Source: Blastococcus sp. PRF04-17 (GTDB taxonomy: Bacteria; Actinomycetota; Actinomycetes; Mycobacteriales; Geodermatophilaceae). From it: a stretch of DNA of 64,000 nucleotides. The stretch is from contig NZ_CP095412.1 in assembly GCF_023016265.1 (NCBI RefSeq), positions 2,542,001-2,606,000 of the forward strand, in the 5' to 3' direction. Both the position numbers and the translations under genes were made by a program. The notes below the pieces were generated by a model. The model saw nothing but the letters and a program-made list of their open reading frames with translations, had not been told where the DNA came from and ran no database searches. Below are positions 7,835-57,194 of this stretch, piece after piece (positions within the stretch are counted from its first letter, which is position 1; every line of letters starts with the position of its first letter).

Positions 7835-7850
7835 GCGAAGTTTGAATCGC
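7835..7850 (-). promoter_or_regulatory. Shared palindromic promoter element, copy A
   Basis: On the minus strand it reads GCGAT-TCAAAC-TTCGC followed directly by TAGTAT as -10, about 35 nt before the zinc-finger ATG, with TGTTAC in the -35 region. It is one of eleven RCGAW-N6-WTCGY copies in this window. Confidence 0.6.
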
Positions 7851-8033
7851 GTAACAACTTGCGTGCCAGGCTTCCTCGGGCCACACTTCTCTTAGTCGCC
7901 CGCAAGCACCGGCCGCTACCTCATCACTGCGTGAGTCCTGGCCGCCGCGCGGCCTTCCGTCGGCGGGCGCGGGCCGGAGCCCCTCACGGTGACAGACCCG
8001 CGCCAGTGACAACAGCCCACCGGGAGGCCGATC

Positions 8034-8396
8034 ATGACGGAGACCCAGCAAGGGCAGGCCCAGCACGATGCCGATCGACAACACAGGATCGCGCGCCGAC
8101 CGGACCCCCTGCCGGCTCGGTCATGGACCTTGTTGACGCATCACGCGCGCCTACTGCTGGCCGTGGCCGAGCGGCCGGACGCGCGCGTCCAGGATCTGGC
8201 GAGCGTCGTGGGGGTGACGCCTCGCGCTGCCCTCACCTTGCTCCGAGACCTCGAGGACGCCAACCTTCTTCACCGCGTGCGGGTGGGTCGCCGGAACCGC
8301 TACACCATCCACCCCGACGCTCGAGTAGGGAGCGAGGTGTGCGATGTGCGCACCGTGCGCCAGTTCCTGGCGGCGTTCAGCAGCGAGGAGACGTAG
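8034..8396 (+). CDS. Small winged-helix DNA-binding regulator (paralogue 1)
   Basis: A 120-residue protein with one central winged helix-turn-helix domain: VQDLASVVGVTPRAALTLL is the HTH (~residues 55-75) and LLHRVRVGRRNRYTIHP the wing. The domain resembles MarR/ArsR-type single-wing regulators. Its closest relative in the window is the minus-strand protein at 56564-56913, with which it shares RVGRRNRYT and the preceding PDAR-(M/V)-x-DIA-type helix. The ATG follows GGGAGG. It sits directly upstream of the V-ATPase operon, whose promoter carries the shared palindrome, so it is a candidate regulator of that element. Effector unknown. Confidence 0.75.
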   Translation: MTETQQGQAQHDADRQHRIARRPDPLPARSWTLLTHHARLLLAVAERPDARVQDLASVVGVTPRAALTLLRDLEDANLLHRVRVGRRNRYTIHPDARVGSEVCDVRTVRQFLAAFSSEET

Positions 8397-8417
8397 ACCT
8401 CAGTCGAGACGACCGCC

Positions 8418-8447
8418 TTGACAGACGAAGCGTGATTCGTGTTTGAT
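8418..8447 (+). promoter_or_regulatory. V-ATPase operon promoter with palindromic element, copy K
   Basis: A consensus -35 TTGACA (8418-8423) and a -10-like TTTGAT (8442-8447) flank the palindrome ACGAA-GCGTGA-TTCGT (8425-8440), 118 nt before the GTG of subunit D. The palindrome fills the spacer, where a bound protein would compete with or reshape polymerase binding. Confidence 0.6.
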
Positions 8448-8564
8448 GGATCGCATACCCGCTGACCGAGCCTCCTCACTCCGAGCTCCGATGCTGCGTT
8501 TCGATCGGATCAGGGTCAGGAGCAGCGGCGCCAAGAGCCCGCACTGGACCCATCTGGAGGCCCC

Positions 8565-9218
8565 GTGGACGCACCGAGTGCCACCCGCAGCGAGCTGCTG
8601 GCCCGCCGCCGTCGGGCCAACCTGGCCGTCCAGGGCCGTGACCTACTGCAGGACAAGCGCACGGCGCTCGTCCGCGCTTTCCAGGCCCGCAGCACGTCGC
8701 TGCTGCAGCGCCTGGAGGAGCTGGCCCGCGATGCCGCGCAGGCGCACCGCCGGCTCGACCGGGCACGCGCCGAACTCGGGACTGCGGCCGTCGAGTCGGC
8801 GTCCTTCGCGGCGGCCGGTCGAATCGGGGTGCGGCTGACCGACTCCGCCGTCGCCGGCGTCGTGGTCGTCGATGCCGAGCACGCCGAGGTGCGGCGGGCG
8901 CCCGGCGCCCGAGGCTACGAGACCACGCTCGTCGACCCGCACGTCGACGCGGCCGCCGACGCCTTCGAGGAGGAGGTCGATGCGCTGCTCGACCTCGCCG
9001 CGCTGGAGCTGACCGTGCGCCGGCTGGCCGAGGAGATCGCCCGCACCACGCGGCAGGTCAACGGCTTGGAGCACGTGGTCATCCCGCGGCTGCGCGGGGA
9101 GGCCCGCCGTATCGCGTTGGCGCTCGACGAACGCGAGCGCGAGGAGATCGCTCGCCTCAAGCGCGCCCGGACGCAGGCGCGGCGGCGGACCCAGGCGCGC
9201 TCGCGGAGCAGTCGATGA
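8565..9218 (+). CDS. atpD: V/A-type ATPase subunit D (central rotor stalk)
   Basis: A 217-residue protein, the usual length for V/A-ATPase subunit D, the coiled-coil shaft inside the A3B3 head. Long helices occupy both ends, with LLQDKRTALVRAF near the N-terminus and RQVNGLEHVVIPRL near the C-terminus, both typical. The GTG start follows TGGAGG. The gene is first in the operon, while in many bacteria and archaea subunit D follows A and B. The stop overlaps the next ATG (ATGA). Confidence 0.9.
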   Translation: MDAPSATRSELLARRRRANLAVQGRDLLQDKRTALVRAFQARSTSLLQRLEELARDAAQAHRRLDRARAELGTAAVESASFAAAGRIGVRLTDSAVAGVVVVDAEHAEVRRAPGARGYETTLVDPHVDAAADAFEEEVDALLDLAALELTVRRLAEEIARTTRQVNGLEHVVIPRLRGEARRIALALDEREREEIARLKRARTQARRRTQARSRSSR

Positions 9219-9595
9219 CCACCGAGTCTCTCCGAGCCGTCCGAGAGCTCGAGCGCGAGATCGGCGAGCGGCTGTCCGCCGCCCGCGCCTCCTCCGAGCT
9301 GGCCGACCGGGCCGCCGCCGAGGCGCGGACTCTGCGCGAGTCGGCGACCGTCGAGGCCGAAGAACTTGCGCAGCGCCGGGTGGCCGAGTTGGTCGCCGCG
9401 GCCGAGCAGGAGGCCCTTGCCGTGCGGGCCGCGGGTGAGCACGCCGCGGCGCAGCTGCGCGAGGTGGCCGCTGCCCGGCTGGACGCGGACGTGGCCGACC
9501 TGCTCGCCAGGGTCGCCCCGGGCTCGCTCGAGGACCGCCTTCCGGCGGAATCCTCGACGTCCGACGCACTCACTCGCCATCCTCGAAAGGATTGA
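9215..9595 (+). CDS. V/A-type ATPase peripheral stalk subunit G/H-like
   Basis: A 126-residue, almost wholly helical, alanine/glutamate/arginine-rich protein. The coiled coil covers residues ~5-105. In V/A-ATPases such a protein (G, or AhaH in archaea) pairs with subunit E as a peripheral stalk. Assignment rests on composition and on position between D and I; sequence identity in this family is low. Its ATG overlaps the subunit D stop. Confidence 0.65.
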   Translation: MTTESLRAVRELEREIGERLSAARASSELADRAAAEARTLRESATVEAEELAQRRVAELVAAAEQEALAVRAAGEHAAAQLREVAAARLDADVADLLARVAPGSLEDRLPAESSTSDALTRHPRKD

Positions 9596-9596
9596 C

Positions 9597-11635
9597 GTGC
9601 TCGTTCCCATGATCCAGCTGGAGATCCTCGGCCACCGGGAGCAGCTGGACGACGTCCTGCGCCGGCTGCAGCACCTGCGCGTCGCCGAGGTGAGCCAGGC
9701 CCCCGGATCGCCGAGCGCACGGTTCGAGGCACCCGATCCAGCGGCCGGGGCCGATGCCGAGCAGCGCGAGCTAGCCAGCCTGCTGGACCGCGTGGAGCGG
9801 CTGCTCACCCTGGCGGAACCAGCCGATCCGTCGCCGCTGCTCACCGCGCCCGACGCCGTCGAGCCGTCCACCGCGGAGCTGGCCGAACTCGTCCTCCGCG
9901 AGGAGAACCGGTTGGCCGCGGGCCTGTCGGCGCTGGAGGAGCTGCGAGCCGAAGCGGACGCGCTGCCGCGCAGCGCGGCGTCGCTCACCGCGCTGCTGCC
10001 GCTCGTGCCCGAGTTGGCCGAGCTCTCCGACAGCGAACTCGCCGAACTGCACCTGACCACCATCGCGCTGATGCTCGAGGACCCCGACAGGTCCCTCACC
10101 GGCGAGCTGCGCGCCGAGCTGGAAAGCACCCTCGGCCGGACGTTCCTGCTCGTAGCCGCACCGGTCGACGACACCACCGTCGGCTGCCTCCTGCTCGTGC
10201 CCAGCAGCGCCACCGCCGAAGTGGAGACTTTGCTCGGTCGCGACCACATCGCCCGGCTGAGCCTGCCGGGGGCCTACCCCCTCCGGTCCCTCGCCTCGAC
10301 GGTGGCAGCGATGCAGGAGCGTCTCGCCGCGCTCCCCGCGGAGCTGGCGGCCGCCGAGCGGTCCATCCGCGAAACGCTGGCACCCAGGCTGCGAGAACTG
10401 CGCCTGGCGCGCGGCACGCTGACCGCGCGACTGGAACGGCTGCGAGCCGCCGGCCAGGCCGACGTAGGCGCCCGAACGTTCGCGCTCCGCACGTGGATTC
10501 CGAGGTCCCGCACCGTGGCGGTGGCCGGCGCCCTCTCCGGGACCGACCGGCCGGTCGTGGTGATCAAACTCCGCGCCAGGGACCACGCCGGAACACCGCC
10601 GACGCTGCTGCGCAACATGCGAGTGTTCAGGCCCTTCGAGCGGCTCGTCGGGTTCCTCTCCTGGCCGGCCCAGGGCGGACTGGACCCCACCGGCCTCATG
10701 GCGGTGGTCCTCCCGCTGCTCTTCGGAATGATGGTCGGGGACATCGGCTACGGCCTCCTGCTCGTCGCCGCCGGATGGGGCATCCGCCGCCGCTGGGGGA
10801 CCCGCAGCGGGCCCGCCGACGACGCCGGTCGCATCCTGGTGGCCGGCGGGTGGTGGTCGACGATCTTCGGCGCCCTGTTCGGGGAGCTCTTCGGCGACTT
10901 CGGCCGTTCTGCGCTCGGCATGCCGGCGTTGTGGTTCTACCGCGGCGGCCCTGACGCTCTCGAGCCCCTGCTGCTGTTCGTGCTCGGCGTCGGGGCCGCC
11001 CATGTCGTTCTCGGCCTGCTGCTCGGCCTGTGGACGGCGGTCCGAGCAAGGCACGCGGGTCATGCCGTCGAACGGCTGGGCACCCTGATGGTGCTCTTCG
11101 GCCTCTTCGCCGTCGCCGGCGTCGTCGTGGGGTTCCTGCCGGGTGGCCTGATGACCCCGGCCGTGGCCGCAGTGGTGGTCGGCATCGTGCTCGCCTCGGT
11201 GGTGCACGGGACCCTGGGGTTCTTGCTCGGCCCGCTCGAGATCATCGGCACGATCGGCAACATCCTTTCCTACCTTCGGCTGGCCGCAGTCGGCCTGGCT
11301 TCGGTGTACCTGGCCATCGTGGCCAACGAGCTGGCCCGTCAGGCGCCGATCGTCCTGGGGCTGCTGATCGCGGTCTTCTTCCACACGCTCAACCTGGCGC
11401 TGGCCGCCTTCAGCCCGATGGTCCAGGCGCTGCGGCTGCACTACGTGGAGTTCTTCAGCAAGTTCTACGAGGGCAACGGTCGCCCGTTCTCGCCGCTTGG
11501 TGCCGGGCTGCCCGCCCCTCCGGCGAGCACGCCGCCCCCCTTCGACCGGCGGAGGCGGAACCGCCCGCGCCTCCGCCGATCCCGGCACCGGCGCAGCCGG
11601 TCGCCGGTGCCGCAGCCGAACCAGCCCGGTCCTGA
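9597..11635 (+). CDS. atpI: V/A-type ATPase subunit I (membrane stator, a-subunit)
   Basis: A protein of about 680 residues. The N-terminal half is cytoplasmic with coiled coils; the C-terminal half has about seven membrane segments beginning at MAVVLPLLFGMMVGDIGYG and including the proton-path segment NILSYLRLAAVGLASVYLA. GTG at 9597 is the start, just after the G/H stop. As given, the frame reads on without a stop into subunit K through an Arg-rich stretch after 11530. The neighbouring frame instead gives a natural Pro/Ala-rich tail ending at 11635, so a one-base error in the C-run near 11535 is more likely than an I-K fusion. Confidence 0.85.
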
Positions 11636-11660
11636 CCAACCCCTAGAACAGGAGATCACC

Positions 11661-11882
11661 ATGGAAATCGGACTGCTCGCCATCGGCGCCGGCCTCGCCG
11701 TCGGGCTCGCCGCCCTGGCCGCCGGCATCGCCCAGGCCCGCATCGGCGCCGCGGCGATGGGGGCCATCGCGGAGAAACCGGAACTGACCGGCCGGGCGAT
11801 CCTGTTCGTCGCGCTGCCCGAGACCACGGTCATCCTGGGCTTCGCCGTCGCCGCGATGATCATCCTGCTGCTCGGCGGCTGA
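11661..11882 (+). CDS. atpK: V/A-type ATPase subunit K (proteolipid c-ring)
   Basis: A 73-residue proteolipid: two hydrophobic helices joined by a polar loop (GAIAEKPELTGR). The second helix carries the carboxylate expected for ion binding (VALPETTVILGFAVAAMI, Glu ~54). This single-hairpin size matches c-type subunits. The ATG follows AGGAG at ideal spacing, which supports separate translation from subunit I. Whether the ring carries H+ or Na+ is not settled: the Gln/Thr ligands typical of Na+ rings are not obvious. Confidence 0.9.
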   Translation: MEIGLLAIGAGLAVGLAALAAGIAQARIGAAAMGAIAEKPELTGRAILFVALPETTVILGFAVAAMIILLLGG

Positions 11883-11883
11883 C

Positions 11884-12501
11884 GTGAGCCTGACCGATCT
11901 GCTCCGCTCCCTCGACGGGGACGCTGCGGCCGAACTCGACCGGGTACGTCGAGCGGCCGAGGACGAGGCCCGCCGCATCACCGGCGAGGCGCGGGCCGAC
12001 GCGGACGCAGTTCGGGCCGCGGCCCTCGCCGACGCCCAGGCACGAGGCACGCGGACCGCGAACCGCGTGCTCGCCGAAGCTCGGGCCGAGGCGGCCGCGC
12101 ACCTGCGTACCGCCCGGGAGCAGGCCCTGCACCAGGTACTCGAGCGAACGCAGGACCGGTTGGCCGTGGTGCGGGAGAGCCCCGGCTACGGCGGGCTGCT
12201 GACCCGGTGCCTCACCGAGGCTCTCGATGCCCTTGCCGCGCCGGTCACCGTACGGGTGGACCCCCGGGACGGCGATCTCGCCCGGGAGCTAGCCGCCAGA
12301 CAGCGGGGCGGGCTGGAGGTGCGACCGGACCTCGAGACCTGGGGCGGCTGCATGGTGACCGACGCCGGTGGCCGGTTCATCGACAACACCCTCGAGGCGC
12401 GGCTGCAGGCCGCCTGGCCCGGCCAGCGGGCGGCCATCGCCGCGCACTGGTCCCGCCCCGCCACAGCCGACGGCGGACCTCCGACACGAGGTCGGCGATG
12501 A
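11884..12501 (+). CDS. atpE: V/A-type ATPase subunit E (peripheral stalk)
   Basis: A 205-residue protein. Residues 10-100 are a charged, alanine-rich helix, and the C-terminal globular domain carries GGCMVTDAGGRFIDNTLEARL, which is characteristic of the V/A-ATPase E subunit C-terminus. GTG at 11884 starts right after the K stop. It should pair with the G/H-like protein as the peripheral stalk. Its stop overlaps the next ATG (ATGA). Confidence 0.88.
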   Translation: MSLTDLLRSLDGDAAAELDRVRRAAEDEARRITGEARADADAVRAAALADAQARGTRTANRVLAEARAEAAAHLRTAREQALHQVLERTQDRLAVVRESPGYGGLLTRCLTEALDALAAPVTVRVDPRDGDLARELAARQRGGLEVRPDLETWGGCMVTDAGGRFIDNTLEARLQAAWPGQRAAIAAHWSRPATADGGPPTRGRR

Positions 12502-13912
12502 GGCGTCCGGATTTCGTCATGGGCAACACCCGGCTCCGGGCCCGCCGGGCAGCCCTGCTCGACCGCGAGCAGGTCGCCCGGCTGGCCGGAGAGGACCTCA
12601 CCGGCCTAGCGGCACACCTACGGGCCACGGTGTACGGGCCCCTCCTCGCCCCCGGCCCGGTCAGCCGCCAGGCGCTACTGGCCGCAGTCGAAGAACGTCG
12701 ACGGCACGCGCTGCGAGGCGTGGGCGACGTGTACCGCGGTGAGGCCGGGCAAGTGGTCGGCGCGCTGCTGGCCCGCTACGACCTGGCCGACACCCTGACG
12801 CTGCTCCGCGGGGCGGCGCACGACCTGCCCGACGACGAGGTGCTGGCCGCCCTGCACGGTGTCGGCGCTCTGACCCCGGCAGCCGCCCGACACGTCGTGG
12901 CCGAGGAAGCTGAGGCGGTCGTGCACCGGCTGGCCGCCGCGCGGTTGCCCGATCCGGAAACCGCCACGGCGGCACAGCAGGCTTGGGACCGCTACCTGCT
13001 GCACGACGATCTCGCCGAGTTGGAGGCGGCGGTCGCCCGGGTCGCCATGGCCCGGAGCGAGCGGTTGCTGTCCGAGGCTGGTCTGCCGGTGGCCCCGCTG
13101 CGTCGATTTCTTGCCGCGGAGCGGGACGCGGCCAACCTGCTGGCGGCGCTGCGCGTGAGCCAGAACGGCTCCGACCCAGCCGACATGCGGGCACACCTGC
13201 TTCCTCCCGGGGCCATTCCGACTCGGACCCTGGTGGCCGTCGGCGGCGGCAGCGACCCGATTGCTGCCGCGCCGCCGCCTGGCGGTCCGAACTCACCCGG
13301 GCCGTCAACACCGGCGACCTGACCGGACTCGGCCAGGGGCTCGAACGACTCCTGCTCGCGGAGGCCGTGCTCGGATTCCGCACCGGAGACCCCCTCGGCG
13401 TGGCGATCCCCCTGGCTTACGTCGCCGCGGTCGAGGAGGAGGCCCTCGCCCTCCGCCGGCTGGTGACCCAGGCTCCCGCCGGCGAACCGGCGCCCCCATC
13501 GGTTCCCTCCGTCGGGGCTGGAACGGGCAGGAGCGCTCCGGTGCCGGCGTCCGCGCCGCCGGAGGGGTGGCCCGGCGACTTGCTGGCGATCGTCCCGGAC
13601 GAGACCGCGGCCGGTTTCCGGCTGGCCGGCACCCGGACCGTCGCCGAGCGCGATCCCGCCGTCGTCCGAGAACTGGTCGACGCCGAGCTCACCGGCGGTT
13701 TCGGCGGGGTGATCGCCGTCGCGGAACGGACCTGGGCCGCGCTCCCGGCATCCGTCCGCACGGAGTGGGCAGCCAGCACCGTCCCCCTGATCATCCCACT
13801 ACCCGTCGAGGACGACACCGCGGCCGGGTCACGGCGGGCGCGCATGCAGGAGCTACTGGCCCGCTCCGTGGGCTACGAGATCACGTTCACGCCCGAAGGA
13901 GACCGGACATGA
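12498..13912 (+). CDS. V/A-type ATPase subunits C and F, apparently fused, one frameshift
   Basis: Residues from the ATG at 12498 form a subunit C-like helical protein (MRRPDFVMGNTRLRARRAAL ... LLAALRVSQNG). The frame breaks near 13270, in GCC repeats, and resumes as LTRAVNTGDLTGLGQGLERL and GDPLGVAIPLAYVAAVEEEAL, the usual C end. With no stop, a ~35-residue Pro/Gly/Ala linker then leads into subunit F (LLAIVPDETAAGFRLAG ... TVPLIIPLPVED). A GTG at 13541 preceded by AGGAG could start F separately, so fusion versus separate genes with a lost stop is open. C docks the rotor to the c-ring; F is the small rotor subunit. Confidence 0.75.
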
Positions 13913-15711
13913 CCGCCGACATCGCACCGGCAATCGAAGAGGTTCGGGCGCACCTCGGCCGACTGGAACGCATCTCCGGTCCCGTCGTCACCGCCGTCGG
14001 GCTGCCCGGCGTCCGGCTCTTCGACGTGGTGCGTGTCGGCTCCGAGGGGCTGCCCGGAGAGGCGATCCGCATCGACGGCGACGCGGTCACCGTGCAGGTG
14101 TTCGAGGACACCACCGGACTGAAGGTGGGCGACCCCGTGGTGTCCACCGGTGCCCCACTGCTGGCCGAGCTGGGGCCGGGGCTGCTCGGCAGCATCGTGG
14201 ACGGCACCGGCCGGCCGCTGACCGAGCTGGCCGGCGCCGGCCCGGACGGCGGCGTCGCGCGGCCGTTCATCGCGCGGGGCGCCGACCCGCCGCGCCTGGA
14301 TCGCACGCGGCACTGGGACTTCCGCCCGGCGGTGACCCCGGGTCAGCGGGTCGGTCCGGGCGACGTGCTGGGCACCGTGGCGGAGACACCGGCACTGGAG
14401 CACCGGGTACTCGTCCCGCCCGGGGCGGGGGGCGTGGTCACCGCCGTGCAGGCAGGTCCGGCCACGGTCACCGACGCAGTGGTGCACATCGACGGGCGAC
14501 CGCTGCCCATGCTGCGGCGGTGGCCCGTGCGCGACCCGCGGCCGGTGCGCGCACGGCTTTCCCTGGACCGGCCACTGGTGACCGGGCAGCGGGTGCTCGA
14601 CGTGCTGTTCCCGGTGGCCGCCGGCGGTAGCGCGATCATTCCCGGCGGGTTCGGCACCGGGAAGACGATGACCGAGCAGGCGCTGGCCAAGCACGCATCG
14701 GCCGATGTCGTCGTCTACGTCGGCTGCGGCGAGCGGGGCAACGAGCTGACCGAGGTACTCCAGGAGTTCCCCGAGCTGGTCGACCCCCGCAGCGGGGCGC
14801 CGCTGATGCAGCGGACGGTGCTCGTCGCCAACACCAGCAACATGCCCGTTGCCGCCCGCGAGGCCAGCATCTACATCGGCATCACCTACGCCGAGTATTT
14901 CCGCGACCAGGGCTACGACGTGGCCCTCATGGCCGACAGCACCAGCCGATGGGGCGAGGCGCTGCGGGAGGTGTCGACCCGGCTGGAGGAGATCCCCGCC
15001 GAGGACGGCTACCCCGCCTACCTGGCCTCCCGGCTGGCCAGCTTCTACGAGCGCTCCGGGCGGGTGGTGTGCCTGGGCGGCTCCGGCGATGACGGTGACC
15101 GCACCGGCTCGGTGACCGTCATCGGCGCGGTGTCCCCGGCCGGAGGCGACTTCTCCGAGCCGATCACCCAGAACAGCCTGCGGCTGGCCGGCGCCTTCTG
15201 GGGCCTGGACACCGCCCTGGCCCGCCAGCGGCACTACCCGGCCGTCAACTGGACCCGCAGCTTCTCCCAGTACGACGTCGTCGGCTGGTTCGACCGCGAG
15301 GTGGCCCCCGACTGGTCGCAGCTGCGCGCGTGGGCCCTCGCGCTGCTCCAGCAGGAAGGCTCCCTGCAGGACGTCGTCCAGCTGCTCGGCGTGGAGGCGC
15401 TGGCCCCCGAGCAACGCGTGGTGCTGCGCACCGGCCGGCTGCTCAGGGAGGCCTTCCTGCAGCAGTCGTCCTTCGACGAGCGTGACGCCAGCTGCCCGCC
15501 GGCCAAGTCGGCGGCCATGCTTCGGGCGCTGCGCGTCGCCCACACGGCCATGACCGTGGCCCTCGCCCGCGGCGCGGACCCGGCTGCGCTGGTCGCATCG
15601 CCGGCGCTCGGGCAACTCACCGGCATGAAGCAGTGGACGGCCGAGGAGGCCGTCACCGAGGCACCCATGCTCGCCGCCCGGGTGCGGACCGCTCTGGAGG
15701 CAACACGATGA
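13909..15711 (+). CDS. atpA: V/A-type ATPase catalytic subunit A
   Basis: A 600-residue catalytic subunit with the bulge domain of V/A-type A subunits. The Walker A motif is GGFGTGKT (~245-252), slightly altered from the common GPFGSGKT. The catalytic region [15 protein letters not shown] supplies the glutamate, and [18 protein letters not shown] is the Walker B/switch segment. The C-terminus has [18 protein letters not shown] 13909 overlaps the stop of the C-F gene. It hydrolyses or makes ATP with subunit B; direction cannot be told from sequence. Confidence 0.95.
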
Positions 15712-17128
15712 CCGCCTTTCCCGCCGCCCCGACCGAGCCGCTCCACACGATCGGCCACACCATGGTCGCGCGCATCACCGGCCCACTGCTGGTGATCGAC
15801 AGCGCCGACGACCTGGCCTACGGCGAATTCGTGGAGGTGGAGGCGGCCGGCGACACGAACGGCGCGCCTGTCACACGTCGCGGTCAGGTCCTCGAGGTCG
15901 ACGGCTCGCGCGCCGTCGTGCAGGTCTTCGGTGGCACCGCGGGAATCGGCCGCGAGGGCACCACGGTGCTGTCCCGCGGCCGGCCGGCCCGCACCGGCGT
16001 CGGCCGCGACTACCTCGGCCGCATCCTCGACGGCGCCGGCCGCCCGCGCGACGGCGGCCCCGAGCCGATCCCCGAGGACGAACGGGACGTCGGCGGGATG
16101 CCGCTGAACCCGGTGGCCCGCGACCACCCCGACGAGTTCATCGAAACCGGCGTCTCGGCCATCGACGGACTGCTCACCCTGGTGCGCGGGCAGAAGCTGC
16201 CGGTCTTCTCCGGCTACGGCCTGCCCGCCGACGAGCTGGCCGCCCGCATCGCCACCGAGGCGCGCGTGCCCGGCGACGACGCCGGCTTCGCGGTGGTGTT
16301 CGCCGCGATGGGGGTCACCCGGCGCACCGCGGACTTCTTCACCGAGCAGCTGGCGGCGACCGGCGCGCTGGAGCGCTCGGTGCTGCTGCTCAACCTCGCC
16401 GACGACCCGACCGTCGAGCGGATCCTCACCCCCGGGTGGCGCTCACCATCGCCGAGCACCTGGCCTACGAGCACGCGCTCCACGTCCTGGTGGTGCTCAC
16501 CGACATGACCAGCTACTGCGAGGCGCTGCGCGAGATCTCCGCCGCCCGCGAGGAGCTGCCCGGCCGCCGCGGCTACCCCGGCTACATGTACACCGACCTG
16601 GCCACGCTGTACGAGCGAGCGGGCCGGGTGCGCGGGCGGGCCGGTTCGGTCACCCAGCTGCCCATCCTGTCGATGCCCGACGACGACATCACCCACCCGG
16701 TGCCGGACCTGACCGGCTACATCACCGAAGGGCAGGTGGTGCTCTCCCGCGAGCTGCACCGCACCGGGGTCACCCCGCCCATCGACGTCCTGCCCTCACT
16801 GTCCCGGCTCATGAACGCCGGCATCGGCGGGGGCAAGACCCGAGAGGACCACCGCGCGGTGGCCGACCAGCTCTACGCCTGCCACGCCCGCGGAATCGAG
16901 GTGCGCCGGCTGCTGTCCATCGTCGGCGAGGGGGCGCTCGCCGACGACGACCGCCGCTTCCTGGCGTTCTCCGACGCCTTCGAGGCCGAGTTCGTCGGTC
17001 AGGGCGCCGGGCGACGCAGTATCACCGAGACCCTCGACGCCGCCTGGCAGCTACTGGCCGACTTCCCGGACGACGAGTTGACCCGCATCCCCGCGGGGCT
17101 GCTCGCCCGATACCGCCCCCCCACCTGA
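15708..17128 (+). CDS. atpB: V/A-type ATPase regulatory subunit B (one frameshift)
   Basis: About 473 residues once one frame break is repaired. The N-terminal part has [20 protein letters not shown] and the family segment [25 protein letters not shown], lacking a functional P-loop as expected for B. The C-terminal part has [43 protein letters not shown] and [19 protein letters not shown]. The break lies at about 16431-16436, in a C/G run: one extra C would join ILTP to [13 protein letters not shown]. It is the last gene of the ATPase operon as seen here. ATG 15708 overlaps the subunit A stop. Confidence 0.92.
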
Positions 17129-17140
17129 CCCTGCGGGCCG

Positions 17141-22214: not shown

Positions 22215-22230
22215 CCGAAGTGGGAATCGT
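22215..22230 (-). promoter_or_regulatory. Shared palindromic promoter element, copy B
   Basis: On the minus strand it reads ACGAT-TCCCAC-TTCGG followed directly by TTATAC as -10, about 31 nt before the ATG of the Usp/Gre fusion gene. Confidence 0.6.
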
Positions 22231-22508: not shown

Positions 22509-22524
22509 GCGATTCGATTTTCGC
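22509..22524 (+). promoter_or_regulatory. Shared palindromic promoter element, copy C
   Basis: GCGAT-TCGATT-TTCGC, then one base and TAATAC (22526-22531) as -10, with CCTTAC in the -35 region. It lies ~42 nt before the ATG of the DUF1116 gene that opens the carbamate-kinase operon. Confidence 0.65.
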
Positions 22525-27151: not shown

Positions 27152-27167
27152 ACGATGTGTATTTCGC
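27152..27167 (+). promoter_or_regulatory. Shared palindromic promoter element, copy D
   Basis: ACGAT-GTGTAT-TTCGC, then A and TAATGT (27169-27174) as -10, with CTTTAT in the -35 region. It faces only the UPF0182 remnant, which begins ~17 bp downstream, so its original target has probably been lost. Confidence 0.6.
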
Positions 27168-27190: not shown

Positions 27191-27537
27191 GTGGTCAACT
27201 TCGGAGACCGGATTGCTACGGCGACACCCTGGAGCAGACCCCGGACTAGGTCTTCGGCGCGGGAGCCGATGAGCCGGCGGCGGACACCGGGGTACCGCCG
27301 CCTGAGGGCAGGGCTGAGCCCGGGGCAGCCCACAGAACCGCTCCCCGCACCGGCGGACGGCGGGACCCCGGCCGATCCGCGGCTGACCCGGGCGGTGACC
27401 GACCTCGACACCGCCCTGGACCGGGTGGCCGACGCCCAGCGCTCCGGCGACCTGGCCCGCTGGGCCAGGCGCTCGAAGAGCTGGGGGCCGCCGTCGAGGC
27501 GTACCAGGCGGTGGCCGGCTCGGGACCCGCCGCCTGA
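27191..27537 (+). pseudogene. Remnant of a UPF0182 gene 3' end
   Basis: The DNA matches the last ~350 bp of the intact UPF0182 gene (61550-61900): VNFGDRI at its start, and later LDTALDRVADAQRSGDL against IDTALDRVAEAQRSGDL in the intact copy. The reading frame is broken more than once, so no functional product is expected. It lacks the rest of the ~2.9-kb gene. It probably arose by duplication or recombination of the region's own sequence. Confidence 0.8.
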
Positions 27538-33906: not shown

Positions 33907-33922
33907 ACGATACTCGTTTCGC
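33907..33922 (+). promoter_or_regulatory. Shared palindromic promoter element, copy E
   Basis: ACGAT-ACTCGT-TTCGC, then G and TAATAC (33924-33929) as -10, with CTTTAC in the -35 region. About 42 nt before the icd ATG. It is among the closest copies to the consensus. Confidence 0.7.
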
Positions 33923-33970: not shown

Positions 33971-35479
33971 ATGACCGGCACCCCGACGGCTCAGCGACAC
34001 GCCGCAGCGACATCAGACGAGCCACGACGCGAGGCGGCGGCCGGAGTCCCGGTCACCGTGGCCCGCGGGGACGGCATCGGCCCGGAGATCATGGAGGCGA
34101 CCCTGCGGATCCTCGACGCGGCCGGCGCCCGGCTCGCGGTCGAGGAAATCGAGATCGGCGAGTCGGTCTACCGGCGGGGGCACAGCGCCGGCATCGAGCC
34201 CTCGACGTGGGAGTCGCTGCGGCGGACCCAGGTGTTCCTCAAGGCACCGATCACCACACCGCAGGGTGGTGGGTTCAAGTCCCTCAACGTGACCGTGCGC
34301 AAGACGCTGGGCCTGTACGCCAACGTGCGGCCCTGCGTCGCCTACGCGCCGTTCGTCCCCACCCGGCACCCGGGGATGGACGTCGTGGTCATCCGGGAGA
34401 ACGAGGAGGACCTCTACGCCGGCATCGAGCACCGCCAGACCGACGAGGTCACCCAGTGCCTGAAGCTGATCAGCCGGCCCGGCTGCGAGCGGATCGTCCG
34501 GTACGCCTTCGAGCACGCCCGCCGGCACGGCCGTCGGAAGGTCACCTGCTTCACCAAGGACAACATCATGAAGCTGACCGACGGGCTCTTCCACCGGGTC
34601 TTCGACGAGATCGCCGCCGAGTACCCCGACCTGGAGAACGAGCACTGGATCGTCGACATCGGGGCCGCCAAGCTGGCCGACACCCCGGAGGCCTTCGATG
34701 TCGTGGTCACCCCGAACCTCTACGGCGACATCCTCTCCGACGTCGCCGCGCAGATAGCCGGCTCGGTCGGCCTGGCCGGCTCGGCCAACATCGGCGACCA
34801 GGTCGCGATGTTCGAGGCCATCCACGGTTCGGCTCCGCGCCGCGCTGGCCAGGACGTCGCCAACCCCTCGGGTCTGCTCATGGGAGCGGTCATGATGCTC
34901 GTCCACGTCGGGCAGGCCGAGGTCGCCGAGCGGGTGCACAACGCATGGCTCGCGACGCTCGAGGCCGGCGCGGCCACGTATGACATCGCCCCCGCTGGGC
35001 GCGCGCCGCTCGGGACGCAGGCCTTTGCCGACGCGATCGTCGCCCGACTGGGCGACCGCCCCCGCACTCTCAACCCCGTGCGCTACGCCGCGCTCCCACC
35101 GGCGGTGCCGCGTCAGAAGCCCGCACCGCGCACGCCCGAGCGCAAGACCATGGACGGCGTCGACATCTTCGTCCACGACGCCGGGACCTCCCCCGACGCA
35201 CTCGCTGCCATCCTGCGGGAGGCGTCCAGGGACTCCTACCTGAAGCTCCAGATGATCTCCAACCGGGGAGTCAAGGTCTGGCCCGACGGGCTGCCGGAGA
35301 CGTTCTGCACCGACCACTGGCGGGCTCGCTTCATCGCCCCGGCACCCGGCTGCGCCCACCACAAGCACGTGCTGCAGCTGCTGTACTTCCTGGAGCGGGC
35401 CGGGGTCGACTTCATCAAGACCGAGGGCCTCCACCGGTTCGGCGGGCAGCCCGGCTATTCGCTGGGACAAGGGCAGTGA
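33971..35479 (+). CDS. icd: Isocitrate dehydrogenase, Thermus-type with C-terminal extension
   Basis: A 502-residue member of the isocitrate/isopropylmalate dehydrogenase family. Substrate and cofactor motifs visible are ARGDGIGPEIMEATL, KAPITTPQGGGFKSLNVTVR, VVIRENEEDLYAGIEH, NLYGDILSDVAAQIAGSVGL and AIHGSAPRRAGQDVANPSG. The ~140-residue C-terminal domain (DIFVHDAGTSPDALAAIL ... SNRGVKVWPDG) is found in the longer Thermus/Rickettsia-like IDH branch. It decarboxylates isocitrate to 2-oxoglutarate. Many actinobacteria instead use a monomeric IDH, so this may be a second, condition-specific enzyme. The ATG follows AAGGGAGAG; the stop overlaps the next GTG. Confidence 0.88.
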   Translation: MTGTPTAQRHAAATSDEPRREAAAGVPVTVARGDGIGPEIMEATLRILDAAGARLAVEEIEIGESVYRRGHSAGIEPSTWESLRRTQVFLKAPITTPQGGGFKSLNVTVRKTLGLYANVRPCVAYAPFVPTRHPGMDVVVIRENEEDLYAGIEHRQTDEVTQCLKLISRPGCERIVRYAFEHARRHGRRKVTCFTKDNIMKLTDGLFHRVFDEIAAEYPDLENEHWIVDIGAAKLADTPEAFDVVVTPNLYGDILSDVAAQIAGSVGLAGSANIGDQVAMFEAIHGSAPRRAGQDVANPSGLLMGAVMMLVHVGQAEVAERVHNAWLATLEAGAATYDIAPAGRAPLGTQAFADAIVARLGDRPRTLNPVRYAALPPAVPRQKPAPRTPERKTMDGVDIFVHDAGTSPDALAAILREASRDSYLKLQMISNRGVKVWPDGLPETFCTDHWRARFIAPAPGCAHHKHVLQLLYFLERAGVDFIKTEGLHRFGGQPGYSLGQGQ

Positions 35480-45060: not shown

Positions 45061-45076
45061 GCGAACTGTTTTTCGC
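45061..45076 (+). promoter_or_regulatory. Shared palindromic promoter element, copy F
   Basis: GCGAA-CTGTTT-TTCGC, then G and TAGTGT (45078-45083) as -10; TTGTAT (45055-45060) is the -35 at 17-bp spacing. A second TTCGC occurs 14 bp after the first. About 185 nt of leader separates it from the acyl-CoA synthetase ATG. Confidence 0.7.
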
Positions 45077-51772: not shown

Positions 51773-52057
51773 GGCCGGCACCGTATCGGCGCACGACCGT
51801 GGCCGCATCGACCGGCGCAGTGAGCTGGGCCCGCGCATGGCTCGACACCGACGACCACATGCAGTCCCCTGGCCAGCTGGCTGGAGTACTCCAAGACCGC
51901 TCGCGGCCCCTCCGCCCTCGCAGGGCGCCCGAGGACGTCAACCGACTTACCTTCTGTCCGATCACAACGAGTGGCCCGGTCCTAGGATCCGCCGGTTGCG
52001 GTCCCGGTCCTTCCGCCTCCGAGGCGACGGGCGGCCGCACACCACGCCATTGGACCG
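51773..52057. other. Intergenic region upstream of promoter copy G
   Basis: About 285 bp between the divergent lactate genes and the acyltransferase promoter. No gene or palindromic element was recognised before copy G. Confidence 0.4.
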
Positions 52058-52073
52058 GCGAAGAAGTTTTCGC
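52058..52073 (+). promoter_or_regulatory. Shared palindromic promoter element, copy G
   Basis: GCGAA-GAAGTT-TTCGC followed directly by TAATGT (52074-52079) as -10. About 125 nt before the acyltransferase GTG. Here the extra base between palindrome and -10 is absent. Confidence 0.65.
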
Positions 52074-52204
52074 TAATGTGGTTCCTGGAGTCGAAAGCAG
52101 CCCGCACGGTGGCTCCGCCAGCCCGCCGGCCGCTACCCGCACAACGGCGACCGGACCACCCTACTCATCGAGCGCCGTCCGGCGCTCCGGAGGAGGGCCT
52201 TCCA

Positions 52205-53542
52205 GTGGACACCACCCGCCCGTCGATCCGGACGATCGCCGAGCGCACACCCGACAGCCGGGACCGCGTCGTCGACCTGCTGCGAGCGATCGCCATCCTC
52301 ACGGTGGTCATCGGGCACTGGCTGGCGGTCGTCGTTGTCGTGCGAGACGGTGAGCTCACCGGCTCCAATGCGCTGGGCCTGTGGCCGCCCGCCGAATGGC
52401 TCTCCTGGCTGGTGCAGGTCATGCCGCTGTTCTTCCTCGTGGGGGGCTACGCGGGCATGGCGTCCTGGCAGTCCGCCCGTGACCGCGGGCGCCCTCCGCT
52501 GGGCTGGTTGGCGGACCGGATGCGCCGCCTGCTGCGACCGACGACGGTGTTCCTGGCCGCCCTGGTGGCCGGCACCGGCCTCGGTCGGTTGGTGCTCGAC
52601 GACGAGCTCGTTGCCACGGCCGCCTGGGTGGCGGCCATCCCGCTGTGGTTCCTGGCCGTCTACGTGGCCGTCGTGGCCGCGACCCCTCTACTGGTCGCGG
52701 CAGCGGACCGGTGGGGCCTCGGGGCACCCCTCGCGCTCGGTACCGCCGTGTTGGCGGTCGATGTCCTTCGCCTGGCCACCGGTGTGGCCTGGGCGGGCGC
52801 CGTCAACTTCCTCCTGGTGTGGATGTGCCTGTACACCCTCGGGGTGACCTGGCGTGCGGGCCCCCTGCTGGCTCACCGCTGGATGCCGGCCGCGCTGTTT
52901 GGAGGCGGCGTACTGCTGGCGGCGGGACTGGTCGCGCTGGGGCCCTACCCGCTGTCCATGGTGGGCGTCCCCGGGGCGGCATTCCAGAACACCGCCCCTC
53001 CCTCGCTGGCACTGCTGGCCTACGGAGTCGCCCAGGCCGGAGCGGTCCTGCTGGTCAGAGGCTCACTGGCCAGGTTGACACACCGCCGCTCGGTGTGGAC
53101 GGCGACGGCAGCGGTGAACGCCACGGTGCTGACGCTGTACCTGTGGCACATGGTGCCGATCCTGGTTGCCGCGCCGGCACTACACCTCAGTGGCATCCTC
53201 GCCGCCCCGGAGCCGCTGACGGCCGACTGGTTCGCGCTGCGCCCGGTATGGGTGCTGGCATGCGCGGGCGTCCTCCTCGTCCTGGTCCTGGCTCTCGGCC
53301 GCGTCGAGCGGCCCGGCCGGCGCCCCCCGGCGGCAGCGGCCCCGGCGACACCCCTGCGTGTGGCCAGTGCAGCGCTCGGCGTCGCGGCGATCTGCGCCGG
53401 ACTGGCACTACTCACGGCGTCCGGCGTCGACCACGTCTCTCGGCCGATCACGCTCGCCACGACTGCGGTCCTGTACGGCTCCGGTCTGGCGCTTGTGGCG
53501 CGGGCCTCCCGACCGAAGAAAGATGCGAAACTTGTTTCGTGA
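52205..53542 (+). CDS. Acyltransferase_3-family membrane protein, longer paralogue
   Basis: A 445-residue membrane protein similar in plan to 47909-49099: DRVVDLLRAIAILTVVIGHW, VMPLFFLVGGYAGMASWQSA and YLWHMVPILVAAPAL. The last ~80 residues add two helices after an alanine/proline-rich loop. GTG 52205 follows GGAGGG. The extreme 3' end overlaps promoter copy H. Likely modifies an envelope glycan or lipid; donor and acceptor unknown. Confidence 0.78.
   Translation: MDTTRPSIRTIAERTPDSRDRVVDLLRAIAILTVVIGHWLAVVVVVRDGELTGSNALGLWPPAEWLSWLVQVMPLFFLVGGYAGMASWQSARDRGRPPLGWLADRMRRLLRPTTVFLAALVAGTGLGRLVLDDELVATAAWVAAIPLWFLAVYVAVVAATPLLVAAADRWGLGAPLALGTAVLAVDVLRLATGVAWAGAVNFLLVWMCLYTLGVTWRAGPLLAHRWMPAALFGGGVLLAAGLVALGPYPLSMVGVPGAAFQNTAPPSLALLAYGVAQAGAVLLVRGSLARLTHRRSVWTATAAVNATVLTLYLWHMVPILVAAPALHLSGILAAPEPLTADWFALRPVWVLACAGVLLVLVLALGRVERPGRRPPAAAAPATPLRVASAALGVAAICAGLALLTASGVDHVSRPITLATTAVLYGSGLALVARASRPKKDAKLVS
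53525..53540 (+). promoter_or_regulatory. Shared palindromic promoter element, copy H
   Basis: GCGAA-ACTTGT-TTCGT at the end of the acyltransferase gene, ~73 nt before the small membrane protein. The -10 is poorer here: ATTGCT at the usual place or TAGTCT 13 bp further on. Confidence 0.5.
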
Positions 53543-53613
53543 TTGCTCATGCGGTAGTCTAGTTCCGTAGCCGCTTGACCTGACCGGCAAGCGGACGGGA
53601 AGGGGGAACCCCG

Positions 53614-53859
53614 ATGTCGGATCTGCTCCCCTGGCTGGCACTGGCGGTGTGGTGCGCGGCGTTCGCGCTGCGGGTGCACCCCCGGACGCGGTCGTGGGCT
53701 CCCCGCGGGATCGCCGGCAGGACCGCACGCAGGCGGAGCGCGACGCGGGCCGGCACACCGGCCCGGTCGGTGCCCGGGACGGTCGAGGCTCCCGTCCCCG
53801 TTCCAGGCCCCCGATCGCCCGTCGCCGGGTCCGCCGATGACCGAGAGGTTGCTCGATGA
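53614..53859 (+). CDS. Small membrane protein preceding the second P-type ATPase
   Basis: An 81-residue protein: one N-terminal transmembrane helix (LLPWLALAVWCAAFALRV) and a basic, proline-rich tail. Function unknown. The ATG follows AGGGGGA and the stop overlaps the ATPase ATG, so it is translationally coupled to the pump and could be an accessory micropeptide. That role is inference. Confidence 0.55.
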   Translation: MSDLLPWLALAVWCAAFALRVHPRTRSWAPRGIAGRTARRRSATRAGTPARSVPGTVEAPVPVPGPRSPVAGSADDREVAR

Positions 53860-56639
53860 CACAGGCGCCGCCACCCGCCGCGACTGTTACCGCGGATGCC
53901 GCCCAGCTGCAGGACCCGCATCTGCAACCGGCCGCCGTGGTGGCCGACGCCCTGAGCGTCGACCCGACGCGAGGACTGGACGAGGGCGAGGTCCTTCGAC
54001 GCCGGGGCATGGTCGGGGAGAACCGCCTGCCGGAGAAGCCGCGACGGCCGGCGTTGCTGCGCTTCCTGGATCAGTTTCGCAGCCTGCTGATCCTCATCCT
54101 GCTCGGCGCGGCGGTCCTTGCCGGTCTGGTCGGCGACCTCAAGGACACGATCGTCATCCTCGTCGTCCTGTTGATCAACGCGACGATCGGCTTCGTCCAG
54201 GAGAACAAGGCCGAGCGCAGTCTGGAGGCACTGCGCGACATGCTGGTGGCCACGGCCCGGGTCCGCCGGGACGGAACACCCCGCATCGTTGAGGCCGCCG
54301 AACTGGTGCCCGGTGATGTCGTCCTGCTCGAGGCCGGCGACCACATTCCGGCCGACGGCCGCTTTCTGGTGGCCGAGTCGGTGGAGGTCGACGAGTCCGC
54401 GCTGACCGGGGAGTCCCAGCCGGTGGCCAAGGACACCACCCCGGTCGGCGCCGCCCCGGGCGAGCAGGTCCCGCTGGCCGACCGGACCGGCATGGGCCAC
54501 ATGAACACCGCACTCACGCGTGGCCGTGCCGAACTTCTGGTGACCGCCACCGGCATGCGGACCGCGGTGGGCGCCATCGCAGAGTTGCTGAGGAGCGGCG
54601 AGGAGCCCAAGAGCCCGCTGCAGGTCCAGCTGGACTCGGTGGGCAAGCGCATCGCCCTCATCGGCGGCATCGCCATCGGCGTCTATGCGACCATCGCCCT
54701 GCTCCGCGGCGAGTCGCTGGGCGAGCTGGCGCTCTCCGCGGTCGCTCTCGCCGTGGCCACGGTGCCCGAGGGGCTGCCCGCCGTCCTGGCACTCACCCTT
54801 GCTCTCGGCGTCGCCCGGATGGCCCGCCGGGGCGCCATTGTCAAGCGGCTGGCCTCGGTGGAGACCCTGGGCTCGGCGACGGTCATCTGCAGCGACAAGA
54901 CCGGCACGCTGACCCTCAACCAGATGACCGCCCGGGCGCTGTCCTTCGCCGGGCGCCGGGTCCGCATCGACGGCGAGGGATACGCCCCCCGGGGAGCCCT
55001 CGTCGATGAGGCGACCGGCCAGCCGGCCGAGGATGTCCACATACTGCTGGCGCCCCTCGTACTCTGCAGCGACGCCACGCTCTCGCCGGGTACCGACCGC
55101 CCAGGCATCGTGGGCGACCCCACCGAGGGAGCGCTGGTCGTCGCAGCGGCGAAGAGCGGCCTCTCGGCCCTCACCCTCCGCGCCGCGCATCCGCGGATCG
55201 CCGAGCTGCCGTTCGACAGCGCCCGCAAGTTCATGGCCACCGTGCACAACGAGGGAGGCCGGGCCCGCGTGTACCTCAAGGGCGCGCCGGACGTGCTGCT
55301 CACCCGCAGCACGACGGTGCTGACCGCCGAAGGGGTGCGCGAGCTCGACGCCGGCGAGCGAGAGCGGCTGGCCGACGACATCTCCGCGCTCGCCTCCCGG
55401 GGCCTGCGAGTCCTTGCCGCCGCAACCACGCTCGTGGACGACCTACCCGCCAGCGGGGACCCGGCGGCTGCCAGTGCGCTCGCAGAACGGCTGACGGGAT
55501 TGACCCTGCTCGGGCTGGTCGGCATCGCCGACCCACCGCGCCCCCAGGTCAAGGACGCCATCGCCCTCGCCTCTCGAGCCGGGGTGTCGGTCAAGATGAT
55601 CACCGGCGACCACCGTGACACCGCCGCCGCGATCGCCCGGGAGCTCGGCATCGGCGGCGCCGTCGTCACCGGCGCCGAGCTGGACCGGATGGCCCCGGAG
55701 GAGTTGTCGAAGCGGGTCGAGGACATCGGCGTCTTCGCCCGCGTCGCCCCCGAACACAAGGTCGCCATCGTCGCCGCCCTCACCGCGCGCGGGCACGTCG
55801 CGGCGATGACCGGCGACGGGGTCAACGACGCGGCGGCGCTGCGCTCGGCCCACATGGGCGTGGCCATGGGCATCACCGGCACGGAGGTGACCAAGGAAGC
55901 CGGGGACATGATCCTCACCGACGACGACTTCACCACCATCGTCGCCTCGGTCCGCGAAGGCCGATCGATCTACGACAACGTGGTCAAGTTCGTGCGCTTC
56001 CAACTGTCGACCAACATCGGCGCCATCCTGTCCTTTCTCGGCGCGACCGTGGCCGGACTGGCGGCACCGCTCACCGCCCTCCAGGTGCTGTGGGTCAACA
56101 TCATCATGGACGGCCCCCCGCCATGGCCCTCGGAGTCGACCCCGCCCGGCCGGGACTGATGGACGAGCCACCACGCAGATCCACCGAGCGGATCCTCAAC
56201 CGGACCCGACTAGTGCGCATGTTCCGGGCGGCGCGGTCATGGCGACCGGCACCCTATCGGTGCTCGCCCTGGCCGACGGCGCCTTCGGTGCGGCGGTGGC
56301 CGCCACGATGGCGTTCACCACCTTCGTGCTGTTCCAGTTCTTCAACGCGCTCAACGCGCGAGCCGAGCGCGAGACGGTCTTCACCCGGCACCTGTTCACC
56401 AACCGCTGGCTGTGGACGTCCTTCGGCGTGGTGGTCGTCCTTCAGGTCCTCGTGGTCCACGTACCGGTGCTGCAACGCCTGTTCGACACCACGGCGCTGA
56501 CGGCGACCCAGTGGCTGATCTGCGCAGCCGTGGCCTCCTCCGTTCTCGTACTGGAGGAGCTGATCAAGGCCGCGGGGCCGGGGGCCAGGACGCGCCGGCG
56601 CGACGGGCTGGCGCCGCCCCCGCGACGCGGCCCAGTTGA
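53856..56639 (+). CDS. P2A-type (Ca2+-ATPase-like) cation pump, frameshifted near the 3' end
   Basis: The first 767 residues are in frame: TGES (~183), PEGLPAVLALTLALGVARMA, DKTGTLT (~346), KMITGDHRDTAAAIARELG and MTGDGVNDAAAL (~650). Segment 6 reads LWVNIIMDGPPAMALGVDPA, with the Asn and Asp that bind Ca2+ in SERCA-like pumps, after repairing one missing G near 56120. A second break near 56230 leads to ATGTLSVLALADGAFG and the last helices (TATQWLICAAVASSVLVLEE). A third break before the stop is likely; the end given is approximate, and it converges on the minus-strand regulator. The breaks lie in C/G runs. Confidence 0.85.
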
Positions 56640-56913
56640 CGAGCGCCAGGAAGTCACCCACCCGAACGTGCTCCTCCAGCGGGTGGCGAAAGCGGCTCTG
56701 GCCCACCACGGTGTAGCGATTGCGCCGCCCCACCCGCTCGCGGATGACGTAGCCACCCTCCTCCAGGTCCTTGACGATCATCTGCACCGCTCGCTCGGTG
56801 ATACCGACGTGTTCAGCGATGTCGCGCATCCGCGCGTCCGGATCGATGGCCAGAGCGACCAGGACATGCCCGTGATTGGACAGGAAAGTCCATCCCGTTG
56901 GAGACGACGTCAT
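56564..56913 (-). CDS. Small winged-helix DNA-binding regulator (paralogue 2), likely leaderless
   Basis: A protein of about 115 residues: SPTGWTFLSNHGHVLVALAI, the helix-turn-helix MRDIAEHVGITERAVQMIVK, and the wing VIRERVGRRNRYTVVGQSRF, followed by EEHVRVGDFLALVNWAASRG. It resembles MarR-like single-domain regulators and shares RVGRRNRYT with the protein at 8034. ATG 56913 lies only 7 nt after the TAGTGT -10 of promoter copy J, so transcription should start at or beside the ATG. As given the frame stays open to 56254 through a Pro/Arg-rich stretch; an indel near 56600 is assumed, so the end is approximate. Confidence 0.75.
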
Positions 56914-56927
56914 GCGAAGCACACTAC

Positions 56928-56943
56928 CCGAATGGACAATCTA
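56928..56943 (-). promoter_or_regulatory. Shared palindromic promoter element, copy J (autoregulatory position)
   Basis: On the minus strand: TAGAT-TGTCCA-TTCGG, then G and TAGTGT (56926-56921) as -10, 7 nt before the regulator ATG. The left arm is degenerate. A further CTTCGC follows the -10, as in copy F. Confidence 0.5.
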
Positions 56944-57178
56944 GTCACCGTAAGCATCCCTCTACCGAGGGGCAACGGAACGCCGGTGACGATGGCCGCG
57001 CGACCGACGGTAGACGCACCCAGGCGGCCGGCGACAGCGACGGCGATGCGGGCCAGGGTGGGCGGCCGCAAATCCGAGGGCGGTAGCACCTCACCGCACA
57101 TGCCTCCGCGCCTCCAGCACTCCCCGCGCCGCGCGCGGGAAGTTGCGCCTTCTCCTCACACAGGAACTCGCCTTGTGA

Positions 57179-57194
57179 GCGAAGAATTTTTCGG
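57179..57194 (+). promoter_or_regulatory. Shared palindromic promoter element, copy I
   Basis: GCGAA-GAATTT-TTCGG, then G and TAACGT (57196-57201) as -10; TTGTGA (57173-57178) lies in the -35 position. About 135 nt before the Usp-like gene that opens the baeRF3 pair. Confidence 0.65.

Follow-up and report, generated by a model that had tools for sequence, protein, structure and literature searches.

A promoter palindrome in a Blastococcus gene island as the likely operator of a widespread winged-helix regulator family

Why does one 16-base palindrome recur before a run of V-type ATPase genes, isocitrate dehydrogenase (icd), a P-type ATPase and several other genes in a single stretch of an actinobacterial genome, and which protein reads it? 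The stretch, hereafter the window, comprises 64,000 nucleotides of Blastococcus sp. PRF04-17 (contig NZ_CP095412.1, positions 2,542,001 to 2,606,000), and the element is RCGAW-N6-WTCGY. A sequence-only reading had counted eleven copies in promoters of an island within the window, proposed that they mark a regulon and suspected two winged-helix proteins encoded there. From comparison of sequences across genomes we now consider it likely that this palindrome serves as operator for a widespread family of stand-alone winged-helix regulators, represented here by R1 and R2, which most likely repress these promoters, including their own. We infer binding, repression, the division of sites between R1 and R2, and the signal. 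The candidate regulon is backed by the genome-wide specificity of the pattern, by a sampled weight-matrix control, by an island in a second genus that is syntenic and has the element before counterpart genes, and by the association of the element with winged-helix genes across phyla.

The palindrome in the window and the genome

An exact scan of the window for RCGAW-N6-WTCGY gave nine matches, as against a mean of 0.53 and a maximum of 4 in 100 dinucleotide shuffles. Eight of the eleven copies listed earlier are exact; those at 22215 (CCGAAGTGGGAATCGT) and 57179 (GCGAAGAATTTTTCGG) each have one mismatch to the core, and the copy at 56928 is no match in the form given earlier. Read on the minus strand, as TAGATTGTCCATTCGG-GTAGTGT-GCTTCGC-ATG, this copy is degenerate but has a good -10, and it directly abuts the R2 start codon. 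The ninth exact match (37177), absent from the earlier list, lies within a Na/Ca-exchanger gene; it lacks a -10 and seems to be there by chance. A weaker copy proposed at 1875, before a CtpF-like ATPase, fell outside the 16 best plus-strand matches in the window (the lowest scoring 4.8) to the position weight matrix (PWM) described below. The candidate operator dyads are as follows, with the PWM score of each copy when it was left out of the matrix (at 56928, when it was included):

7835..7850, strand unassigned: exact match; 26.2
8425..8440, plus strand: exact match between TTGACA and TTTGAT, before V-type ATPase genes; 24.3
22215..22230, minus strand: one mismatch, upstream of a Gre-domain gene (Pfam GreA_GreB domain); 27.6
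22509..22524, plus strand: exact match before the AllG gene group; 24.6
27152..27167, plus strand: exact match before a UPF0182 C-terminal remnant (27217-27487); 35.0
33907..33922, plus strand: exact match before icd; 35.7
45061..45076, plus strand: exact match before a fadD-like AMP-ligase gene (split frame) and an SBF-family transporter gene; 37.6
52058..52073, plus strand: exact match before an acyltransferase-3 gene, with no base ahead of the -10; 2.7
53525..53540, plus strand: exact match before the second P-type ATPase gene; 20.7
56928..56943, minus strand: degenerate copy, -10 GTAGTGT, dyad-2 arm CTTCGC at the R2 ATG; 28.1
57179..57194, plus strand: one mismatch, before a putative leader RNA and the Usp/baeRF3 genes; 31.5

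The PWM has 39 columns and was built from the eleven copies; its control was 14 stretches of 20 kb from the same genome (280 kb), six of them flanking the window, in which the top score was 13.1. When left out, nine copies scored 20.7-37.6, 56928 scored 14.9 and 52058 only 2.7, so that ten of the eleven exceed the control background, 56928 barely, and 52058, which has one base too few before its -10, does not. Across the 4,585,415-base genome the bare core occurs at 52 places (reversed control pattern, 7) and is not island-specific, but the core together with the start of the -10 is specific: the pattern CGAWN5WWTCGYRTAR with up to one mismatch gave 11 rows, or 8 distinct places, of which seven are in the window, and its control gave none. 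The weight matrix and genome search that the sequence-only reading had called for both find the element concentrated in the island; the lack of enrichment that would have spoken against a regulon was not what they found.

With positions numbered from the first base of the 16-mer, the conserved columns are a T/A-rich stretch at -4 to -1, CGAW at 2-5, WTCG at 12-15, G-TAA at 17-20 and T-x-CG at 26-29, with C28 and G29 both present in nine of the eleven copies. A TAATAC-like hexamer begins at position 18. Such a hexamer had been claimed for ten copies, zero or one base past the right arm; one starting with TA is found in nine, the exceptions being 8425 (TTTGAT) and 53525 (ATTGCT). The further claim that the left arm abuts the -35 region holds clearly for 8425, 45061 and 57179, where there is a TTG-containing hexamer, as there is in relatives such as loci L100 and L125; the remaining copies have weaker, T/A-rich sequence. 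Judged by eye, the spacers between -35 and -10 are about 16-18 bp (17 bp at 45061 and 57179, 18 bp at 8425).

We take the conserved T-x-CG at 26-29 to close, on its right side, a second dyad that is displaced by 14 bp from the first and has a degenerate inner arm. Among 27 dyads from outside the window, none of which was used for the matrix, a third half-site stands at offset 14 in 13, whereas other offsets have 0-4 each, except 21 (8) and 41 (7); these dyads, all upstream of regulator relatives, include near kin, with six from five Streptomyces loci and two from near-identical loci of gammaproteobacterial metagenome-assembled genomes (MAGs). In a Paractinoplanes locus (L129) both dyads are nearly complete, ACGAAGCATTATTCACGAAGTACAGTTCGT. 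At the R2 promoter the second-dyad arm CTTCGC joins the ATG directly; the R2 mRNA is thus probably leaderless, with its start at the place expected from the -10. In this layout the first dyad takes up the -35/-10 spacer, and the second, shifted by exactly 14 bp, lies over the -10 and the predicted transcription start. With a dimer on each, RNA polymerase would be excluded and the promoter repressed until a signal released it, and the sites of the regulators themselves would imply autoregulation.

The winged-helix family and its operator in other bacteria

The two proteins suspected of reading the element are the following:

8034..8396, plus strand: R1, a stand-alone winged-helix regulator of 120 amino acids (Pfam MarR just under cut-off; alignment)
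56590..56913, minus strand: R2, a stand-alone winged-helix regulator of about 100 amino acids (Pfam and genome search; mechanical open reading frame 56254-56922)

R1 and R2 are diverged paralogues (40% identical), and a genome search (E up to 0.001) found these two family members only, both in the island. R2 passes the Pfam MarR_2 cut-off (34.1 against 27), which R1 misses (23.3), as it does that of MarR (24.0 against 24.6). The NCBIfam matches, of R1 to ArsR (2.4e-6) and of R2 to ArsR (0.0077) and MntR (0.0097), miss the curated cut-offs (ArsR 27.3 for R1 and 16 for R2 against 55; MntR 15.6 against 153). The AlphaFold2 (AF2) monomer model of R2 has a mean predicted local distance difference test score (pLDDT) of 79, and HcaR and SlyA were among its best Foldseek matches (E about 5e-4 to 1e-3); its fold is predicted to be winged-helix and MarR/ArsR-like. 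His14 and His77 are invariant among the aligned family genes; R1 has no His77.

The family can be set beside better-known regulators. It resembles MarR-family repressors in its winged-helix fold, in the passing MarR_2 match of R2 and in palindromic operators that lie over promoters in a divergent or autoregulated layout. Typical MarR targets are drug or aromatic-acid genes. The present family differs in its size (about 95-110 residues), in R1 falling just under the MarR cut-offs, in the two dyads offset by 14 bp and in its recurrent targets, cation exporters and icd. With ArsR/SmtB and MntR it shares a small winged-helix size, the weak NCBIfam matches and targets of the Mn/Ca-exporter type, although the scores of R1 and R2 are far below the curated cut-offs. 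The target classes also recall the DosR dormancy regulon of mycobacteria, with Usp proteins and a CtpF-like P-type ATPase on both sides. DosR, however, acts as the response regulator of a two-component system and has another motif, unlike the stand-alone winged helix and RCGAW-N6-WTCGY found here. In those parts of the open-access literature that were searched, we found no description of the motif or of the regulator family; the family, its operator and its regulon are apparently undescribed, while the repressor type itself is ordinary.

At E up to 0.001, 47 of 150 genomes of the order have family members, the weakest of these matches being open to doubt. A species-level collection gave at least 587 candidate stretches, and the closest named relatives are from Blastococcus and Geodermatophilus. 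For the best 80 of these at least 587 stretches we analysed the sequence upstream of the family gene. The exact core lies within 250 bp upstream in 25 of the 80 loci (27 matches, 1.36/kb), as against 20 matches in the remainder of the same loci (0.024/kb), a 57-fold difference in density, and arm spacings from 0 to 14 other than six gave only 0-3 matches each. Among the 25 loci are some from isolated strains (Streptomyces, Actinoplanes, Nocardioides and the planctomycetes Aporhodopirellula and Aeoliella) and some from MAGs labelled Gammaproteobacteria and Alphaproteobacteria. On a plasmid of Deinococcus psychrotolerans, TATACGAAAAACTTTTCGCGTAACACATATCG stands between icd and the family gene. 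Furthermore, the PWM made from the island alone produced, across 1.19 Mb of other loci, 110 rows that scored above 18 (both strands, overlapping), equivalent to 58 distinct sites in 47 loci, compared with 2 in reversed sequence. The suspicion that fell on the two winged-helix proteins is thus strengthened, since the same element accompanies their relatives across phyla.

Family members are also carried on plasmids, within related gene sets. Arthrobacter plasmids have a P-type ATPase, a Ca/Na antiporter, TerC, Usp and a bicarbonate permease, and Pseudonocardia plasmids a carbonic anhydrase, a P-type ATPase and a V-ATPase. The 166-kb conjugative plasmid of Arthrobacter sp. U41 (L192) has six places matching the family, the best being 83% identical to R2. 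In Streptomyces loci L145, L158, L162, L188 and L190 two dyads lie 47 bp apart before the regulator, and a DUF4397 gene is near the regulator in L162. A looser 20-mer seemed enriched in one genus (4-25 forward and 6-24 reverse matches per genome, 0-3 in the reversed control), but its matches in three genomes were heterogeneous and, by eye, coding or compositional, and this candidate was rejected.

What does the element control elsewhere? Neighbour tallies covered 50 and 46 chosen neighbours, with genes called by a simple heuristic based on third-codon-position GC content (GC3). Among 30 proteins beside sites that were scanned, 12 were TerC, one was icd and one was DabA. A 25-base form of the element (up to three mismatches) was found at 3, 2, 2, 0 and 1 places in five whole genomes (control, 0), and all eight places adjoin terC (seven) or icd (one). 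With these counts taken as lower bounds, the eleven sites of the Blastococcus island look like an expansion of the usual few per genome. A syntenic, partly decayed island occurs in another genus of the family Geodermatophilaceae (G165, C1:440001-500000, L213-L215). It has four Usp/baeRF3 pairs, two with strong operator-like sites (33.8 and 28.9) and two with weak ones (14.9 and 13.0), as well as sites before an acyltransferase (15.2) and a P-type ATPase (14.4), the counterparts of the genes that follow 52058 and 53525.

Weighing the operator against its rivals

Several results weigh against assigning the palindrome to this family, or narrow the assignment. No recognisable dyad lies within 260 bp upstream of 46 of 116 family genes, which means either that the operator changes between members or that not every member regulates itself. 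A variant with altered arms, RTGAW-N6-WTCAY, is found in 20 of the 80 loci, 18 of which are Micromonospora (other spacings, 0-1 matches), indicating that specificity drifts. Of the 30 proteins scanned beside sites, the remaining 16 are of mixed kinds and point to no single signal: among them are four ABC transporters, an M48 peptidase, baeRF3 and, beside the RTGAW variant, a carbonic anhydrase, and three have no assigned family. The 25-base pattern was modelled on terC-type promoters and found nothing in a Streptomyces genome (G413) despite strong PWM sites at L190, so that the per-genome counts are lower bounds and the terC share is biased upward. Four of the six sites in the syntenic island (13.0-15.2) are near the control maximum of 13.1, and two copies in the window itself are weak when left out (2.7 at 52058 and 14.9 at 56928). 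Finally, R1 is without the Arg76-His77-Pro78 motif of the family and may differ in function; we speculate that it may be a signal-blind partner.

The absence of a dyad before 46 of the 116 family genes also suits an unlinked transcription factor for which the winged-helix genes are merely common targets, as does the fact that the association is one of shared promoters and not of binding. We nevertheless regard this as unlikely: the winged-helix gene and the element go together on plasmids and across three or more phyla represented by isolates (more by MAG labels), and the element is nearly absent from the rest of the genome, both as the core with its -10 and in the sampled PWM control. The putative wing adds a further correlation. 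Residue 66 is Arg or His in 26 of 29 genes with the RCGAW operator and Glu in 27 of 28 with the RTGAW operator, a contrast confounded by ancestry, the latter being mostly from one genus. Micromonospora loci such as L119, L120 and L168 have RTGAW-N6-WTCAY or a near form together with Glu66; at L168 the divergent gene encodes carbonic anhydrase, and a subtilase gene follows.

Could the arms instead be the -35 and -10 contacts of an alternative sigma factor, the element being a promoter class? Conservation does extend around and past the dyad (-4 to -1, 17-20 and 26-29). However, the conserved part is a dyad of fixed spacing, symmetric across phyla and tied to one winged-helix gene family; a sigma factor would need no dyad, and in many relatives, as in several of the copies, the dyad lies between ordinary hexamers of the TTGACA and TANNNT types. 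We consider a sigma factor very unlikely. The sequence-only reading had left the choice between repression and a MerR-like effect on the spacer, and the first dyad does lie wholly inside it, as it would if the winged-helix proteins were activators that distort it in the manner of MerR. MerR promoters have an over-long spacer of 19-20 bp; those here are about 16-18 bp, the second dyad covers the -10 and the start in many copies, the predicted fold is MarR/ArsR-like, and no window protein scanned with Pfam and NCBIfam matched a MerR family. Activation of this kind is highly improbable, and the positions of the dyads favour repression. It is hardly credible that a dispersed repeat or mobile element left the copies behind as remnants: the window does contain an IS21-type istB gene, but the likeness between copies is limited to a promoter-like stretch placed at different gene starts, and a 29-mer (up to one mismatch) occurs in none of 60 relatives. 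The reading that we prefer is still that of an operator bound by the winged-helix family.

Island genes, leader RNA and the possible signal

The genes that had been named as targets do adjoin the sites, with these points on orientation. For the 22215 site the most plausible target is the Gre-domain gene on the minus strand, with its ATG at about 22178 (the 'Usp' part of its earlier description as a Usp/Gre fusion is the earlier reader's label), the 56928 site belongs to minus-strand R2, and the 7835 dyad could serve both plus-strand R1 and the minus-strand zinc-finger gene that starts at 7796, the latter being a likely target. After 22509 come genes with AllG (DUF1116), amino-acid-kinase, isochorismatase and allophanate-hydrolase-C domains, 'carbamate kinase' being again an earlier label. 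The icd ATG is 35 bases past the second dyad of the 33907 site. Other features of the island are:

7656..7796, minus strand: small C2H2-type zinc-finger protein, MAYQCPLCGLRFGHRTMLELHVREDH... (translation; motif by eye)
8565..17128, plus strand: V-type ATPase genes (Pfam subunits D, I, c, C, A and B; 11884-12501 outside the scan)
33971..35479, plus strand: isocitrate dehydrogenase, icd (Pfam)
53856..56571, plus strand: second P-type ATPase (closest to PMR1/SERCA-type models, under their cut-offs)
57203..57314, plus strand: putative diverged copy of a leader of the alx/mntP (yybP-ykoY, manganese) kind (22.4 bits, E 0.04)
57331..58841, plus strand: small protein and baeRF family 3 protein (baeRF3 by Pfam)

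The frame at 57331-57756, labelled 'Usp' by the earlier reader, had no Pfam or NCBIfam match. Three genes are split into two frames (V-ATPase B at 16436-16508, fadD at 45760-45986 and the P-type ATPase at 56159-56239), as is, by eye, a 2-hydroxyacid dehydrogenase at 51108-51122; these may be either assembly errors or decay. The IS21-type istB (Pfam) and a presumed istA beside it occupy 18530-20820. An IstB-like frame was seen by eye at the right end of the window (63012-63494); the overlapping frame 62983-63849 had no Pfam match.

Downstream of many such promoters there is a conserved leader, GGGGAGUACC...CGUCA..ACGG...GGGGAGACC. In an alignment of 26 sequences, with the structure drawn from one of them, 24 of 31 pairs changed on both sides, none of 500 shuffles reached the observed scores and slid versions scored far lower. 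A covariance model made solely from actinobacterial leaders beside these genes finds those of Escherichia coli alx (46.8 bits) and mntP (24.3 bits), which are manganese-responsive; the E. coli record names both products Mn2+ exporters. The idea that the leader is a new RNA was dropped, since its own covariance model links the leaders as a family strongly to alx/mntP. Like yybP-ykoY (Mn2+) leaders it would act at the RNA level, downstream of the operator, but it differs in staying under the RF00080 cut-off: Rfam gave no leader match in the stretches tested, including 57203-57314, and RF00080 gave none over cut-off in six genomes or on the E. coli alx and mntP stretches. Among 296 genomes of the phylum, 65 have the leader. 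Of 30 leader loci, 17 have a TerC/Alx relative nearby, six a P-type ATPase match and seven neither. In the syntenic island, leader-like matches (20.8-42.3 bits) precede three Usp/baeRF3 pairs and the acyltransferase gene. Two strong copies lie elsewhere in the Blastococcus genome, at C1:286557-286670 (82.5 bits), before an Alx/TerC-like gene, and at C1:287850-287963 (70.3 bits).

Our best guess for the signal, judged from neighbouring genes, is a divalent cation, Mn2+, perhaps together with alkaline pH or bicarbonate. This is suggested because TerC/Alx exporters and P-type ATPases recur, several with manganese-type leaders, and because the family histidines are invariant; the SbtA, DabA and carbonic anhydrase cases fit it too. 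Each of the other genomes tested gave only a few such promoters (terC, icd and the regulator itself, as a lower bound), and in the island the regulator pair appears to command about eleven. We tentatively propose a broader picture, which we hold to be possible rather than probable: minimal winged-helix sensors of metal or pH, an undescribed family spread across phyla, might control Mn/Ca export, inorganic-carbon handling and icd through a composite double-dyad operator, with a manganese-type leader added on the same transcript in actinobacteria. As a rule they would guard a few genes, and here their reach might have grown to the whole island, as a horizontally shared regulon under two paralogous regulators.

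In summary, an orphan motif becomes a testable regulator-operator pair in Actinomycetota, Deinococcota and Planctomycetota, and in several more phyla by MAG labels. The island provides a clear example of a local repressor that has apparently expanded to an island regulon. As the family adjoins TerC/Alx exporters, carbonic anhydrase, DabA and icd, its signal, once found, would show how many soil and desert bacteria tie cation or pH balance to central metabolism.

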